Positions 2,313 through 56,909 of a DNA stretch of 64,000 nucleotides are shown piece by piece. This stretch comes from Paenibacillus ihuae. GTDB lineage: Bacteria > Bacillota > Bacilli > Paenibacillales > Paenibacillaceae. The stretch is from the NCBI RefSeq assembly GCF_001368795.1, contig NZ_LN831198.1, forward strand, positions 238,515 through 302,514, given 5' to 3'. The translations under genes and the position numbers were made by a program. How positions within the stretch are numbered: the first letter of the stretch is position 1; each line of letters begins with the position of its first letter. A model generated the notes under the pieces. It saw only the letters and a program-made list of their open reading frames with translations, had not been told where the DNA came from and did not search any database.

Positions 2313-3200
2313 ATGGAAATTTTTAAACAAAACCGCTATATTGCGCTGCTTGTTGGCGTTATTCTAGTGTGTTTCTCTGCTATAAGCTTGCTGAGCCCCG
2401 GTAGAATTAATGAGGGGCAAAATACATTGAAGATGGATAAATTTGGAGGGTCCGGTCATGCATCTGCAGCAGCCCTGTTACCTCGGACGGCGGTATCCCC
2501 TGAGAGGGTAAAAGGAACGGTTAAACCCATGCTCTACACCACAGCGGCAATTCCGGGCCATGTCTGGAACGGCAAACAAACGGTGGACTGGTTCACTCCC
2601 GCTAAGCTGAAGCTTAAGCCAACAGCCGGGACGCAGCCCGCCAAGCCGAAGACCGTTGTGGTGAAGGTGTCGCCGGAAGCGCAGCAAGCGCTGAAACAGG
2701 CGACAGCCAAGGGGAGTCATAGCGTAAACAAAGTAAAAACGGCATCTCAGCAACATCCCCCCACAAAATTGTTCTTCTCCCGGACCAAGCTACTAAGCCA
2801 GGAACAGCAAGCACAAGCAACCTGGAGCTACGCGGTATCCGAAGAAGACCTGCTACTGCTGCAAAAAATCGTTATGGCAGAAGCGGAAGGTGAACCGTAC
2901 CAGGGCAAGGTGGCAGTCGCCAACGTTGTTCTGAACCGGCTGCGGTCAGCCAATTTTCCCGACACTATACATGAGGTAATCTATCAGAAAAGCCAGTTCA
3001 GTCCTGTGGCGAACGGGCGTCTTCAGCGCGTAAAGCCGAATGAAGACAGTATTAAAGCGGTCAATGCCGCGCTCTCCGGGGTGAAAGAGGTAGCTGATGA
3101 TACTTATTTTTTCCTGTCTCTGAAGCTGGCACAGGATCTTACCGTGCATCATTCACGGACCTACGCCAAGACTATCGGCAATCATACATTTTATAAATAG
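2313..3200 (+). CDS. Cell wall hydrolase, SleB/CwlJ type (Hydrolase_2)
   Basis: A 295-residue protein with an N-terminal hydrophobic segment (residues 9-28, signal anchor), a low-complexity Lys/Pro/Ala linker to about residue 165, and a C-terminal SleB/CwlJ hydrolase domain. That domain has the family pattern KIVMAEAEGEPYQGKVAVAN (the likely catalytic Glu is in AEAEGEPY), then QFSPVANGRL, and ends with the usual IGNHTFYK. It should cleave peptidoglycan outside the membrane, either at spore germination or in vegetative wall turnover; no YpeB partner is nearby. A strong AGGAGG precedes ATG. Confidence 0.9.
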   Translation: MEIFKQNRYIALLVGVILVCFSAISLLSPGRINEGQNTLKMDKFGGSGHASAAALLPRTAVSPERVKGTVKPMLYTTAAIPGHVWNGKQTVDWFTPAKLKLKPTAGTQPAKPKTVVVKVSPEAQQALKQATAKGSHSVNKVKTASQQHPPTKLFFSRTKLLSQEQQAQATWSYAVSEEDLLLLQKIVMAEAEGEPYQGKVAVANVVLNRLRSANFPDTIHEVIYQKSQFSPVANGRLQRVKPNEDSIKAVNAALSGVKEVADDTYFFLSLKLAQDLTVHHSRTYAKTIGNHTFYK

Positions 3201-3212
3201 TTACGAAACCTG

Positions 3213-3257
3213 AAAAAGCCTCCATATCCGTATTACTCCGGATTGGAGGCTTTTTTT
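3213..3257. terminator. Bidirectional intrinsic terminator
   Basis: AAAAAGCCTCCA (3213-3224) pairs with TGGAGGCTTTTT (3244-3255), with further pairing inside the loop. It has A-run and T-run flanks and separates the converging hydrolase and glycosyltransferase genes. Confidence 0.9.
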
Positions 3258-3268
3258 GGGGTTCTTCA

Positions 3269-4459
3269 TTAAGGTGTAACATAGACAGGCTCTTCCGTCC
3301 GGGCTTGTTGCGCCCGTGCAATCCGTGGTTCAGCTGATTCGTCTGCACTCTTGCCCAAGAGCTGCAGTACAGTGGAGGCGCAATTATGCGGCTGCTGCCG
3401 TTCCAGGGCCAGCCGGCGTTTCCGCTGCTCCTCAAGACCGGCATATTCCCGCAGCAACAGGGAGAACCATCTGTCCACTACATCCGAATTGAGCACCTCG
3501 GCGAGTCCTAACTCTACGAAATATTGGGCATTCTTCTCTTCCTGTCCCGGAATGGCACTGTAGAAGAGCATCGGTATGCCTTTGGCCTGACCTTCCGTAC
3601 AGGTCATTCCGCCAGGCTTCGTAATCAGCAGATCAGATGCATCCATCAGCTTATTGATTTCGCTGCTGTATCCCAGGATCTTCACATTGGGATGATTCAG
3701 CAGGGGAGTGGCGCGCATTTTGGCCACAAGCTTATCGTTGCTGCCCATGCAGAAGACCAATTGAATGTCGTCCATCCGGGCGGTCAGGGAATCCATGACA
3801 TCTTTGCCGAACATCAGACCCCATCCACCACCCATAATCAGTACGGTAGGGATATCGGCAAGCCCGAGCTCCTTGCGGAGCTGCTGCTTGCTGGAACGCT
3901 CCCAGAATTTCGGATGCACCGGAATACCAGTGACCGTCACCAGCTCAGGAGGAACGCCCCGTCCGGTCAGAATCGATTTGACCCTTGAGGTTGAGACCAA
4001 GTAGCGGTCTGCCTCTGGATTAACCCAGCTGCCGTGAGCATCATAATCGGTTATGAGTGTATACAGCGGTACGTCCAGCCCCTGCTGCTTCAGCCTGGAA
4101 ATGACTGCAGCAGGAATCGGATGGGAGCAGATAATGAGATCAGGTTTCAGCTGCTCAATCACCTTTTGGGCATGTGTATAAAAAATCCGGTGAAGTGCCG
4201 CTCGGGTCAGCCGGTTCAGTGATTTATGATATTGGGTTTTATACATCATGCCGACCAGCTTAGGCTGGCTGCTGACTGTTTTGCGGTAAGCGGAAAGAAT
4301 CCAAGGAGCAACCGTAGGATTCAGGAATCTCCCTAGCTCAATGACCCGGCACTGGACGTCCGGGTTAAGCAGTCTGATTCCTTCGGCCAGAGCATAGGCT
4401 GCTCCTGTATGGCCCGTGCCGAAGCCTTCCGAAAACAGCAGTACTCTTTTCTTTCGCAT
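3269..4459 (-). CDS. Glycosyltransferase, MGDG synthase/UgtP-like (GT28)
   Basis: A 396-residue GT-B glycosyltransferase. The N-terminal MGDG_synth domain opens with LLFSEGFGTGHTGAA, the acceptor-side glycine/histidine motif. The C-terminal GT28 donor domain contains VLIMGGGWGL near residue 210 and the nucleotide-sugar motif ITKPGGMTCTEGQAKGIP near residue 280. Relatives add glucose or galactose from UDP-sugar to diacylglycerol, making membrane glycolipids and the anchor of lipoteichoic acid. The last 35 residues are polar and not conserved-looking. No partner gene is adjacent. Confidence 0.85.
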   Translation of the reverse strand: MRKKRVLLFSEGFGTGHTGAAYALAEGIRLLNPDVQCRVIELGRFLNPTVAPWILSAYRKTVSSQPKLVGMMYKTQYHKSLNRLTRAALHRIFYTHAQKVIEQLKPDLIICSHPIPAAVISRLKQQGLDVPLYTLITDYDAHGSWVNPEADRYLVSTSRVKSILTGRGVPPELVTVTGIPVHPKFWERSSKQQLRKELGLADIPTVLIMGGGWGLMFGKDVMDSLTARMDDIQLVFCMGSNDKLVAKMRATPLLNHPNVKILGYSSEINKLMDASDLLITKPGGMTCTEGQAKGIPMLFYSAIPGQEEKNAQYFVELGLAEVLNSDVVDRWFSLLLREYAGLEEQRKRRLALERQQPHNCASTVLQLLGKSADESAEPRIARAQQARTEEPVYVTP

Positions 4460-53092: not shown

Positions 53093-53962
53093 ATGGGCTC
53101 TAATCGGACAGCAACTGTCCGCAAGATTGATGACATCCTGGATGGACACTGTAAAACATGTGAGGTAAGAGCTGAATTCAACAAGAAATATGGCAGCCGG
53201 TCCGCGCATTTAGATAAGCACTGTAAAAGCAGCTGTCCGGTAGGGTTCCAGCTAGTAGAGTTGGGACAAGAGCTTATGGGCACCGTGAGACCGCGAAAAC
53301 AAATTAAACTGGAGGTTGAGGAAGTTATGGCCAAAACCAAATTCAACATGTCAGCTGAGGAATACTTCGCCGAGCGTCAAGCCGGCAAATCCATCGCGCA
53401 GATCGCGAAGGAGCAGGACGTTTCCGAGGCGACAATCTATAATTACATGAACAAATGGGCAGAAGTGGACAAGGTTTCCGGATCTGTGGAGGATTCACCT
53501 AAGATGCTTCGCGAGAAGGATACAGCACCGGCTACGGAGTTGAAACAACTGGAGAAAGCGGTGCAGGAGATCGAACGCCTGACAGCCGAGGTTGAAAGGT
53601 GGAAGGGCCAAACTACCGAAGCAGTTGCACTTGCCGGCAAGGCTGCTGACGAGTTCATGACTAAAATGGAACTGTCGAGGGCGAGAGCAGACGGCGCGGT
53701 TGCTGCACGGGAAGCGGCTGAACGTGATCTGGTTCAGATGGTCGAGGAGAATGATCGTCTTCGAGATGAGATTAACCGAATGATCACAGAGCGCGATGAA
53801 CTGATGGCAGAGAATGACCGGTTGGAGAATCAGATGGTCGCTTCCCGGGTAGAACCGCAGCTTGCGGATAAGCCAAACGAAGTGCAACTACTTGACCGGA
53901 GCATTGCGGATTTGACCCGGGCTCGCTGGATCCTGAACCGGCTTACTGCATCTGGAGAATAA
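53093..53962 (+). CDS. Zinc-finger, HTH and coiled-coil phage protein
   Basis: 289 residues. An N-terminal zinc finger (CKTC near residue 20; HLDKHCKSSC near 39) resembles the PF10782 family. A helix-turn-helix (about 95-125, GKSIAQIAKEQDVSEATIYN) and a long coiled coil (about 150-270) follow. It may be two ancestral genes fused: an internal ATG behind GAGGTTGAGG near 53327 starts the HTH part. Regulatory role inferred. Confidence 0.65.
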   Translation: MGSNRTATVRKIDDILDGHCKTCEVRAEFNKKYGSRSAHLDKHCKSSCPVGFQLVELGQELMGTVRPRKQIKLEVEEVMAKTKFNMSAEEYFAERQAGKSIAQIAKEQDVSEATIYNYMNKWAEVDKVSGSVEDSPKMLREKDTAPATELKQLEKAVQEIERLTAEVERWKGQTTEAVALAGKAADEFMTKMELSRARADGAVAAREAAERDLVQMVEENDRLRDEINRMITERDELMAENDRLENQMVASRVEPQLADKPNEVQLLDRSIADLTRARWILNRLTASGE

Positions 53963-53968
53963 ACAGAA

Positions 53969-54445
53969 ATGGGGTCAGACATCATGATAACCACAAAAGC
54001 GACCTGGATCGAAACCCTGATTAGTCAATACGCAGCTGAGACTCATACCCTTGAGCGCTACCGTGACACACTAGACCTAAAGGATCCGGCAGCAGCCGAG
54101 GAAGCTGAGACGGTCTCCGGCATGCTGGCAGACATGAGATATGCGTTAACCTGGATGCGCCGCGGCAGACGGCCAGGGAGCCGCAGAGGAGCTGAGCGGA
54201 CGGACGTATACCGGCAGCGTGAAATCTATATCAAACTATCGGCACAGGAGATCACTGAGGCTGAGCGGCTAAGGCTGGTAGATGCCCTGCTTAGCCTAAG
54301 TGATCGGGAGCGAACATGTTTTCTGCTTCATATGGCGCAGGGCTTGACATTGCAGGAGATTTCACATAAGCTGGGAGTATCAAGAGCTTCGGTTCAAGAC
54401 TATGTGAGCCGAGCTAAATGCAAGATTAAGCAAGATTTTTTGTAG
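53969..54445 (+). CDS. Sigma-70 region 4-like late regulator (ArpU-like)
   Basis: 158 residues. The C-terminal part is a sigma region 4 helix-turn-helix: ALLSLSDRERTCFLLHMAQG then LTLQEISHKLGVSRASVQDY. The N-terminal helices resemble phage late-transcription activators of the ArpU/RinA kind. Its place right before the packaging genes fits control of late genes. The start may instead be ATG at 53984. Confidence 0.8.
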   Translation: MGSDIMITTKATWIETLISQYAAETHTLERYRDTLDLKDPAAAEEAETVSGMLADMRYALTWMRRGRRPGSRRGAERTDVYRQREIYIKLSAQEITEAERLRLVDALLSLSDRERTCFLLHMAQGLTLQEISHKLGVSRASVQDYVSRAKCKIKQDFL

Positions 54446-54511
54446 GCTTGCCATACAGGCTGCCCTACACTGAGCCATACAACCTACAGTGCTATAAATC
54501 TGTCTATCAAC

Positions 54512-54540
54512 GGGCTCTCCATCGCGGAGGGCTCTTTTTT
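54512..54540 (+). terminator. Intrinsic terminator between early and late regions
   Basis: GGGCTCTCC-ATCGC-GGAGGGCTC (two G-T wobbles) with T6, just after the late regulator. Confidence 0.75.
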
Positions 54541-54573
54541 GCGTTTAAAAACAATTTTGAGAGGATGATTTTT

Positions 54574-54780
54574 GTGTCAAATCCGCAAATTGAGAATAAT
54601 TTCAAATACCATACGCCGAAGCCTGGTCAGCCTGAAATCTACACTGAGATCCGCGAGAAGGCGAAAGAGCTCGCTGAGCTGATCGATGCGAAGGTGCCGA
54701 ACAGCCGTGAGAAGTCGCTGGCGATGACGAACCTAGAGCAAGCGGTTATGTGGGCCAATGCGGCCGTAGCAAGGAGCTAG
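54574..54780 (+). CDS. Acb2/Tad1 hairpin-like small phage protein (candidate anti-defence)
   Basis: 68 residues: N-terminal IENNFKYHTPKPGQPEIYTE, then two helices, REKAKELAELIDAKVPNSRE and SLAMTNLEQAVMWANAAVAR, forming a helical hairpin. From memory this matches small phage proteins classed with the Acb2/Tad1 hairpin domain, which bind cyclic nucleotides and block CBASS or Thoeris signalling. GTG at 54574 follows GAGAGG by 9 bases; the frame is open upstream but there runs across the terminator. Activity is inference. Confidence 0.65.
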   Translation: MSNPQIENNFKYHTPKPGQPEIYTEIREKAKELAELIDAKVPNSREKSLAMTNLEQAVMWANAAVARS

Positions 54781-54856
54781 GGAAAAACGGAGAAGGCCGG
54801 GCTTCCTGGACGGGCATACGAAACAAACACAACGCCGGGGGTGGTGAAAATGTAGC

Positions 54857-55582
54857 ATGGCTGAAACTTCCAAATTAGCCGAGCAGGATTATATAGCCGG
54901 CATGAAATATAAGGCAATCGCTGATAAATATGGCGTCTCCCTCAACACGGTGAAGTCCTGGAAGAAGCGTCACGGCTGGAGCCGGGAAAAGGGTGCACCC
55001 TCAGCTGATAAGGTGCACCCTAACCGTGGAGGCGCACCGCCAGGCAACCAGAACGCTGTCGGCAACAAAGGCGGCTCGGCTCCTAAGCGAAACAAGAATG
55101 CCGAGAAGCACGGGCTCTTCGCTAAGTATCTACCGGCTGAGTCGCTGGAGATCCTGGAGCAGCTGAAGACACGAGCTCCGCTGGATATCCTCTGGGACAA
55201 CATCATGATCCAGTATGCGGCCATCATCAGGGCCCAGCAGATCATGTACGTTAAGGACCATGACGACAGCACGACCACACAGATTGGCTTCACGAACGGC
55301 GATAAGTCGTACAGTGAGAAGTGGGAAGTGCAGCAGGCATGGGATAAGCAGGCGACCTTCCTGACAGCTCAGAGCCGGGCCATGACGACCCTGCAGGGGC
55401 TGATCAAGCAGTATGATGAACTGCTGAAGACGGATCTGGCCACAGAGGAACAGAAAGCTCGTATTGAGGTGCTGAAGTCCAAGGTGCCGAACAAGGACGG
55501 CGCTGATCCAAACGCCCAGATCACGGCTTTGGCGGATCTGATTAACCATCCCGTAGCTGAGCGGGTGATTGACGATGAGTGA
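54857..55582 (+). CDS. Phage terminase small subunit (PBSX XtmA-like)
   Basis: 241 residues. An N-terminal helix-turn-helix (GMKYKAIADKYGVSLNTVKSW) recognises the packaging site; the middle has the Gly/Asn-rich GAPPGNQNAVGNKGGSAPKR linker typical of this group; the rest is helical and oligomerising. The 76 bases before it and its own start are candidates for a cos or pac site. It overlaps the large subunit by 8 bases. Confidence 0.9.
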   Translation: MAETSKLAEQDYIAGMKYKAIADKYGVSLNTVKSWKKRHGWSREKGAPSADKVHPNRGGAPPGNQNAVGNKGGSAPKRNKNAEKHGLFAKYLPAESLEILEQLKTRAPLDILWDNIMIQYAAIIRAQQIMYVKDHDDSTTTQIGFTNGDKSYSEKWEVQQAWDKQATFLTAQSRAMTTLQGLIKQYDELLKTDLATEEQKARIEVLKSKVPNKDGADPNAQITALADLINHPVAERVIDDE

Positions 55583-56909
55583 AGCAGCCATGATCCCATA
55601 TGCGCCGCTGACAGCCAAGCAGGCGGACTATATCGCTAAATCCCTTGATAGCTGGCTTAACGTGGCTGAGGGCGGTAAGCGGGCAGGCAAGAACATCATA
55701 GACCTGATTGCTTATGCGATGTGCCTTGAGGTGCATCCGGATAAGCTCCACCTGGTCGCAGGAGTAAGCCTAGCAGCCGCCAAGATGAACGCCATAGACT
55801 CCAACGGATTCGGGCTCCAGTGGCTGTTTGCCGGCCGTTGCCGTGAAGGTGAGTATAAGAACCGGGATGCGCTGTACATCCAGACCAAGACTGGCGAGAA
55901 GGTTGTCATTATCGCAGGCGGCGGTAAGGCTAATGACGCAGCGCGGATCAAGGGTAACTCCTACGGCACGGTGTATATCACTGAGGTTAATGAGTGCCAT
56001 CAGAGCTTTGTACAGGAAGCCATTGACCGTACAGTCGCCAGCAGCAAACGGCAGCTCTTCTTTGATCTTAACCCGAAGCCGCCGGCACATTGGTTTTATC
56101 GCGATTTCCTGGATTTTCAGGACAAGGAGAAGAAGGAAGGCCGCAACCCAGGTTACAATTACGCACATTTCACCGTATTTGATAACTTATCTATTTCAGA
56201 TGAGCAGCTGCGGATCGTTCTTGCCACGTATGACAAGGACAGCCTATGGTACAAGGCGGATATCAAGGGGATGCGCACGGCGGCCACAGGCCGGATCTAT
56301 ACGGGTTACACAGTTAAGGACGTCATGGTTACCCGCAAGGATATCGAAGCTGCCAGGTTTATTGAGTTCAGCATTGGAGTGGATATCGGCGGAACAGACG
56401 CCACGGTGGCCACGCTGACCGGATTCACGGCCAGGTATAATGATGTTGTGCTGCTGGATGGCTATTATCATAAGCAAGGCAAGTCAACCGGCTACACGCA
56501 TGACCGGTACGCCAAAGAGATTGTCGATAAGATTGAGGAGTGGGGACAAACGTACCCTGCTTTTTTTGCGTGTGCTCATATCTTCGCGGAGTCCGCGGAT
56601 AAGCTGTTCCGGCAGGCGCTTCTCAATGAGCTGCAGCGCCGGAAGATATTCATCACGGTGACGCCGTCATACAAGAAAGAGGGCATCGTAGACCGGATCC
56701 GGCTGACCAACATCCTGATCAACCAAGGGCGCTACAAGGTCATGAGTCACCTGAAGCCCTGGCAGGAGGCGCTGGAGAACGCGACCTGGAACGAAGAGGA
56801 ACGCGTTAAGGGCGAATGGGTACGCACGGATGACGGCAGCTACCCGGTTGACTGCTTGGATAGCTCCGAGTACAGTGTGCAGCCGTTCAAGAAGAGACTG
56901 GAGGTGTAG
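55575..56909 (+). CDS. Phage terminase large subunit (PBSX family)
   Basis: 444 residues. The N-terminal ATPase has a Walker A-like EGGKRAGKNIID near residue 32 and Walker B TVYITEVNECHQ near 135. The C-terminal RNase H-type nuclease shows SIGVDIGGTDATVATLTG near 270 and the later Asp in YPVDCLDSSEYS. It pumps DNA into proheads. ATG at 55575 overlaps the small subunit stop; a TTG two codons earlier is possible. Confidence 0.93.
   Translation: MSEAAMIPYAPLTAKQADYIAKSLDSWLNVAEGGKRAGKNIIDLIAYAMCLEVHPDKLHLVAGVSLAAAKMNAIDSNGFGLQWLFAGRCREGEYKNRDALYIQTKTGEKVVIIAGGGKANDAARIKGNSYGTVYITEVNECHQSFVQEAIDRTVASSKRQLFFDLNPKPPAHWFYRDFLDFQDKEKKEGRNPGYNYAHFTVFDNLSISDEQLRIVLATYDKDSLWYKADIKGMRTAATGRIYTGYTVKDVMVTRKDIEAARFIEFSIGVDIGGTDATVATLTGFTARYNDVVLLDGYYHKQGKSTGYTHDRYAKEIVDKIEEWGQTYPAFFACAHIFAESADKLFRQALLNELQRRKIFITVTPSYKKEGIVDRIRLTNILINQGRYKVMSHLKPWQEALENATWNEEERVKGEWVRTDDGSYPVDCLDSSEYSVQPFKKRLEV

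Follow-up and report, generated by a model that had tools for sequence, protein, structure and literature searches.

A prophage gene ahead of the terminase genes of Paenibacillus ihuae encodes an Acb2/Tad1 hairpin family protein, a probable cyclic nucleotide sponge

INTRODUCTION

What is the role of a 68-residue protein whose gene lies between a late regulator and the terminase genes of a Paenibacillus prophage? The gene is located in a window of 64,000 nucleotides (the whole stretch of P. ihuae DNA analyzed here), and the original prediction took its product for a hairpin protein of the Acb2/Tad1 type, which would bind cyclic nucleotides and stop CBASS or Thoeris defense. The locus thus raises the question of whether this family assignment is right, at which defense system such a protein would be directed, and how its gene might be expressed. 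Published work is cited by PMC identifier.

MATERIALS AND METHODS

Five proteins of the neighborhood were scanned against Pfam. For alignment A1, 55 loci were picked by eye for spread from the 107 with a tblastn match and were combined with the window protein; its members are 54 to 84% identical to the window protein. Near-duplicates, stop-bearing frames (L019, L022, L106, and L107), the copies of the window's own element (L001 and L021), the two-domain forms L015, L075, and L081, and all of L101 to L108 were omitted. L020 had no tblastn match. L082 was kept as its hairpin part only, and C-terminal extensions were trimmed to a few residues. Neighboring genes were counted within 2.5 kb at 98 loci with the gene, the terminase on the same strand. 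The leader was compared in 16 regulator-related loci (L123 to L138), of which L123 represents the window's own element and L127 the contig of L072.

RESULTS

The gene and its neighborhood. The predicted frame is found exactly where it had been placed on the + strand, with a GTG codon at 54574, a stop codon at 54778 to 54780, and 68 residues (Table 1). An in-frame ATG at 54565 directly abuts the possible ribosome-binding site, so the GTG is the likelier start; a longer frame from a TTG at 54448 would cross the terminator-like hairpin described below. In the close relatives L022, L023, L029, and L030, the sequence MSNPQIENN begins at the same start position. The neighbors, as identified with Pfam, PHROGs, and NCBIfam, are also those that had been named: a late regulator, which is sigma-region-4-like, lies upstream, and terminase genes lie downstream, where a portal gene is found as well. 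The best NCBIfam row for the regulator is PRK06930, "positive control sigma-like factor," at 116.5 bits, below the cutoff of 136. Integrase, regulator, and replication genes lie to the left, which places the acb2-like gene in the late region of a temperate phage, in line with the proposed prophage. The identical stretch is present on a 33.9-kb viral contig (L021).

Table 1. Positions of the features discussed in the text (window coordinates unless a locus is named)
Feature	Position	Strand	Remarks
Sigma-region-4-like late regulator	53969..54445	+	PF08281, E 5.4e-12; PHROG 1190, E 1.4e-32
Three direct repeats, GCCATAC/GCCCTAC/GCCATAC	54450..54480	+	Starts 54450, 54462, 54474; 12-nt spacing
Extended -10-like element, TGCTATAAAT	54490..54499	+	Position shared with related loci
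Terminator-like hairpin (9-pair stem, 5-nt loop, six T)	54512..54540	+	Directly 3' of -10-like element
Possible ribosome-binding site, GAGAGG	54559..54564	+	9 nt 5' of GTG; sequence reading
acb2-like gene, 68 aa	54574..54780	+	GTG start; Acb2/Tad1 hairpin domain
Terminase small subunit gene	54857..55582	+	PHROG 509, E 1e-89; NCBIfam NF040601 over cutoff
Terminase large subunit gene	55569..56909	+	PF03237 and PF04466 over cutoff; PHROG 2, E 1.2e-29
Long-form relative	L105:1498-1857	-	
Long-form relative	L103:1315-1677		
Long-form relative	L081:5842-6198		
Long-form relative	L082:5848-6201		
Long-form relative	L075:5848-6201		

Family assignment and fold. The frame encodes a member of the Acb2/Tad1 hairpin family, as confirmed at the level of sequence profiles. 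The Pfam entry PF24729 (Acb2_Tad1_hairpin), a search against which had been proposed as a check, is the sole Pfam match of the protein at an E value of ≤0.001; it scores 87 bits against a cutoff of 27 (E 9.5e-25), and residues 11 to 67 cover the full profile (positions 1 to 58 of 58). T4 Acb2 reaches 71 bits with the same model. The best PHROG, 1454, is a function-unknown family (E 3.6e-30), and no family was returned for this protein by NCBIfam (up to an E value of 0.1) or PADLOC (up to an E value of 1). Judged from PF24729, PHROG 1454, and its relatives, the frame is a real gene and not a chance frame. When the PDB was searched by sequence with profile A1, the best match was 9ptq, "Acb2 homolog 43" (E 1.2e-5), and Tad1 chains appeared at an E value of 0.004.

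Structural prediction, which had likewise been suggested as a check, agrees with this assignment. A single-chain AlphaFold2 model built from 56 sequences (pLDDT 95.7) has helices at residues 4 to 9, 19 to 40, and 45 to 67, and this predicted arrangement of a short N-terminal helix and two long helices matches the topology described for the Acb2 protomer (PMC10419184). Foldseek returned eight matches at an E value of ≤0.001 among the BFVD viral models, all eight of which are named Acb2/Tad1 hairpin, and zero matches at that threshold in the PDB, where T4 Acb2 was best at an E value of 0.4. In the VIA-align ranking, solved Acb2 chains occupy the top rows (Z 6.9, 6.5, and 6.4; 64 to 65 residues, rmsd 4.8 to 5.4). 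Since unrelated helical chains follow at a Z of 6.2, this ranking supports the likeness to Acb2 without proving it. Because the Foldseek search of the PDB was blank at the threshold used, the family assignment rests on the profile match far above its cutoff and the BFVD matches to a confidently predicted fold, together with the conserved pocket positions described next, and on these grounds the family named in the original prediction holds.

Pocket residues. Aligned in two pieces, the A1 profile places Y12, R27, and T52 of the window protein opposite Y8, K23, and T68 of T4 Acb2, in which we take K23 to be a contact of the dinucleotide ligand. These residues are conserved in 55/56, 56/56, and 56/56 sequences of A1, respectively. 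The N-terminal half of the T4 protein aligns to A1 at only -0.9 bits, its register matching the Pfam ends (residues 11 to 67 of the window protein and 7 to 83 of T4 Acb2, both on PF24729 positions 1 to 58), and hhalign aligned just 21 columns, with a probability of 68. T4 Acb2 is a proven sponge; its Y8A variant is disrupted in dinucleotide binding, and F82 stacks on the ligand, with F82C binding less (PMC12657218). For T68M, the affinity is given as lowered (PMC12657230). The position of F82 is occupied by Ala66 here, in 56/56 sequences, and the Acb2 protein of phage PaP2, the cGAMP-bound protein of structure 8H2J (PMC11722364), likewise has an alanine there when aligned to T4 Acb2, so this residue does not define family membership. 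In the same alignment, Tyr and Lys of PaP2 Acb2 are 15 residues apart. Among 235 frames, the PaP2 protein (gp26 frame) was found with the T4 Acb2 query (E 4.4e-5) and was not found with the A1 query (E 9.2). As the tyrosine, the basic residue, and the threonine are kept and PaP2 Acb2 shares the alanine, it is plausible that the dinucleotide pocket is intact, although in detail it differs from that of T4 Acb2.

R45 and E46 are invariant (56/56) and are not conserved in T4 Acb2, which indicates that some function of this end of the protein differs. This would fit a sponge with another main target, either cA3 of type III CRISPR or NucC systems, or a housekeeping signal such as c-di-AMP, and known Acb2 proteins have been described as having separate sites with which they bind cA3 and several dinucleotides (PMC12043709). 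We consider such a target unlikely, although by no means negligible, and favor CBASS-type cyclic oligonucleotides as the ligands.

Comparison with Acb2 and Tad1. Acb2 proteins (T4 Vs.4 and the protein of Pseudomonas phages PaP2/PaMx33) resemble the window protein in family, in the helical topology predicted here, and in the pocket tyrosine with a basic residue 15 positions further on and a threonine. T4 Acb2 differs in that it has 88 residues instead of 68 and F82 in place of alanine, lacks the invariant SRE that precedes the third helix here, and is only 22% identical over the VIA alignment. The closest PDB entry by sequence, as noted above, also carries the Acb2 name. Tad1 (from a Clostridium botulinum prophage and others) has the same hairpin domain family and third-helix motif; each of its protomers, however, carries an N-terminal antiparallel β-sheet, and its gcADPR pocket is formed by loops and the C-terminal tail of one protomer and by helices of another (PMC12043709). 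We infer that these loops belong to the β domain, which is missing from the all-helical 68-residue model.

Defense genes in the host genome and genus. No resident target is apparent, since the genome that carries the prophage has neither SMODS nor ThsB_TIR (0/1 each). DncV-like proteins were also absent from it (0/1), which is uninformative because the control genomes gave zero as well. A candidate SAVED match (21.4 bits against a cutoff of 26.2) was rejected, as it lies inside a luciferase-like monooxygenase (G000:C1:757910-758092; L139). Across the genus, SMODS was found in 13/100 genomes and ThsB_TIR in 11/100. The sponge family is present in 8/100 genomes, including the prophage's own, with seven over the cutoff; among these eight, SMODS occurs in one (G017) and ThsB_TIR in none, and there is no sign of co-occurrence. 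Co-occurrence is not needed, however, because a sponge is of use in the hosts that a phage has still to infect.

These data bear on the choice between CBASS and Thoeris that the original prediction had left open. A Tad1-type sponge, which would chiefly sequester gcADPR and block Thoeris, is suggested by the shared Pfam family, by the motif SRE...T..E.A.MW.N common to Tad1 chains, and by the genus genomes with ThsB_TIR, but the helical model and the absence of ThsB_TIR from the prophage's own genome speak against it, and we judge it very improbable. Because the Tad1 β-sheet domain is absent from the model, CBASS is favored over Thoeris as the target, so that the first half of the prediction is retained and the second becomes the less likely one. 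For the same reason, we class the protein, on the strength of its predicted fold, as Acb2-like rather than as Tad1 within the hairpin family.

Longer relatives exist in which about 50 extra N-terminal residues with predicted β-strands stand ahead of the hairpin (Table 1). They were considered as candidate Tad1-like forms. Their model (pLDDT 81.5, 5 sequences) matches Tad1/Acb2 chains over the hairpin only, and the top-ranked row, part of the helicase MrfA, covers residues 1 to 54 at a Z of 6.6. No Tad1 chain was found when the long form was searched by sequence against the PDB, and a search with its N-terminal domain gave four loci, of which three fall on contigs in the set analyzed. Other architectures were seen in single frames, namely, the hairpin behind a PGDYG-like stretch in L014:4179-4646 (E 0.0085, below the cutoff) and behind cysteine-rich stretches in L059:5893-6198 and L061:987-1268.

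Distribution, annotation, and genomic position. Relatives with 45 to 100% identity over the best segment are found in genome and viral contigs. A tblastn search matched 309 of 50,697 phage records, 179 from Mycobacterium, 59 from Paenibacillus, 41 from Gordonia, and the remainder from others; 29 of the 309 are at 80 to 90% identity, and 248 are under 60%. The carriers are tailed phages with a wide variety of hosts, and the nearest relatives that bear a name are mostly from Paenibacillus. The best 60 of the 309 are Paenibacillus larvae phages, in which the gene is annotated as hypothetical (44 rows) or as phosphomannomutase (16 rows; records with this label include KT361655.1, MG727698.1, and KT151957.1). 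The latter label is contradicted by the PF24729 match and is surely wrong. Forty-five rows spread over the ranking are named hypothetical, unknown, or phosphomannomutase, apart from one record without annotation, and some of them also overlap a ClpP-like or head maturation protease annotation. The name Acb2 is absent among the phage rows listed, and a literature search for Acb2 together with Paenibacillus found no paper. Names referring to cyclic oligonucleotide sequestering or to Acb2 have been used in announcements on two mycobacteriophages and one Microbacterium phage (PMC11953737 and PMC13348362).

Of the 98 loci, 87 had room on the upstream side, and 11 of these have a sigma-like regulator within 2.5 kb; 89 had enough sequence on the downstream side, and 22 of these have a terminase within 2.5 kb. 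Both genes are found in 8. Each count includes the window's own element (L021), and all three are lower bounds because the profiles were seeded from few sequences, with some loci being near-duplicates. On these figures, a fixed slot beside the terminase was rejected as a rule for the family. The gene instead resembles a mobile cassette for which the place behind a late regulator is a recurrent slot. In P. larvae phage Bob (L110), the order is VRR-Nuc, helicase, a small gene, a sigma factor, the acb2-like gene, hicA, and hicB; the acb2-like gene with the annotated hicA and hicB behind it is at 3001-3895, and in L030, hicA/hicB are recognizable 3' of the acb2-like gene too.

The gene is sometimes lost: L022, L106, and L107 have in-frame stop codons, and 2 of the 8 family-bearing genus genomes have a stop inside the frame. 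In T4-like phages, loss of acb2 is reported to be favored under Panoptes (PMC12657218).

It is conceivable that the hairpin now serves late phage growth in a structural or regulatory capacity and has no sponge activity, for which the adjoining terminase gene in the window, and the terminase in the 22 of 89 loci, would speak. The protein, however, is also found at other places and in phages that are unrelated, as an accessory gene would be, its pocket positions are strongly conserved, and the frames with stops in relatives indicate that the gene is not essential. Such a role is therefore quite improbable, and a sponge remains the preferred reading.

A conserved leader behind the late regulator. 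Between the regulator and the acb2-like gene lie three direct repeats, an extended -10-like element, and a terminator-like hairpin (Table 1). The repeats, which are possible regulator sites, have a score of 19 of 21 that is reached by 0/200 mononucleotide shuffles. A sigma-70 consensus scan of the + strand from 53900 to 55000 found no promoter; it misses the -10-like element because no -35 hexamer fits, and what argues for that element is thus its conservation. As predicted, a terminator-like structure precedes the gene, ending 33 nt before the start codon: the hairpin at 54512-54534 is followed by a T run and folds better than 199/200 shuffles (z -3.31), with the reservation that a consensus terminator scan of the 1.1-kb region found one site where 1.1 are expected by chance. 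The further suggestion that the gene, standing after a terminator, may have its own expression is better turned around, as the promoter-like element is upstream of the terminator. Because of this order, and because both lie behind the late regulator, the gene is probably the first of the late operon, with the terminator in the leader before it. A conserved promoter between the terminator and the gene was considered and rejected: in an alignment of seven upstream regions, the block common to the window and L072 is 5' of the terminator, L030 and L110 share a different upstream sequence, and the other regions look unrelated.

A version of this arrangement recurs in the 16 regulator-related loci. 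After the regulator stop codon, YATA stands 8 nt 5' of TGTCTAT in 16/16 loci (10 exact, 6 with one mismatch). Three 7-mers at 11- to 12-nt spacing beat shuffles in 15/16 loci (≤2/200 mononucleotide shuffles), L123, the window's own set, among them; the exception is L135, where 69/200 shuffles reach the score. The repeat is identical or nearly so within one phage and different between phages. A perfect stem of 9 to 11 pairs (G-T allowed) lies 0 to 4 nt 3' of TGTCTAT in 15/16 loci, with 5 to 7 T in the ten bases after the stem (15/16 loci), and L124 has a stem with an interior mismatch. Stem sequences vary between some loci with the pairing kept, but the loci are related and many are nearly identical, so these variants are not independent events. 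Within the 330 nt inspected per locus, the acb2-like gene follows the leader in L123 and L127 only. Taken together, the repeats, the -10-like element, and the hairpin behind a sigma-like regulator may constitute a terminator-controlled late promoter. Among the papers listed in literature searches, no title pointed to such an arrangement. This leader is the more unusual part of the locus.

DISCUSSION

We consider it likely, with a probability of roughly 0.78, that the acb2-like gene encodes a stand-alone Acb2-like sponge directed against CBASS, a reading drawn from the profile match, the predicted fold, and the conserved pocket positions. The protein would assemble as a hexamer that binds cyclic di- and/or trinucleotides and leaves them uncut, which would keep CBASS effectors inactive during lytic growth or prophage induction.

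The leader suggests how production of such a sponge might be timed. Q proteins of lambdoid phages let polymerase pass terminators. By a Q-like route, the regulator of this prophage could both recruit polymerase and allow terminator passage, releasing the sponge first together with terS-terL; such a late-gene switch, proposed from the arrangement of the elements, is a tentative idea that we think is more probably wrong than right. In the course of events that we regard as most likely, the late regulator would be made upon induction and bind the repeats, which would stand in for a -35 contact, transcription would start near 54505, and polymerase would pass the leader hairpin and yield the sponge first and then the terminase. 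The sponge would thus be made late, from a regulator-dependent promoter and with the terS-terL transcript. The closest parallel is phi13, in which direct repeats and a TATA-like -10 element driving the packaging operon come after the gene for the late regulator (Ltr/P23), and in which the regulator depends on the repeats that precede the TATA box in the promoter for the packaging and structural genes (PMC13123087). Unlike in phi13, there are three repeats at 12-nt spacing here, the regulator is sigma-region-4-like, and a terminator-like hairpin stands directly behind the -10-like element; the word terminator is absent from PMC13123087.

In staphylococcal phages, RNA from terS-terL has been reported to trigger CBASS (PMC10686824), and by analogy, the slot ahead of terS-terL would fit an antidote. 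If this trigger holds here, the sponge and the trigger would appear together, and if the late-gene switch is true, the source of the CBASS alarm and its antidote would be switched on together.

In summary, this work points to a likely anti-immunity function for a gene that is called "hypothetical protein" or "phosphomannomutase" in the best 60 of 309 phage records, and within a clade, that of A1, whose solved relatives are only remote by sequence. Such sponges contribute to whether a phage overcomes CBASS, and they can also give the phage away to Panoptes (PMC12657218). The site ahead of terS-terL links, in a simple and testable way, the RNA trigger of CBASS and a possible protein quencher.
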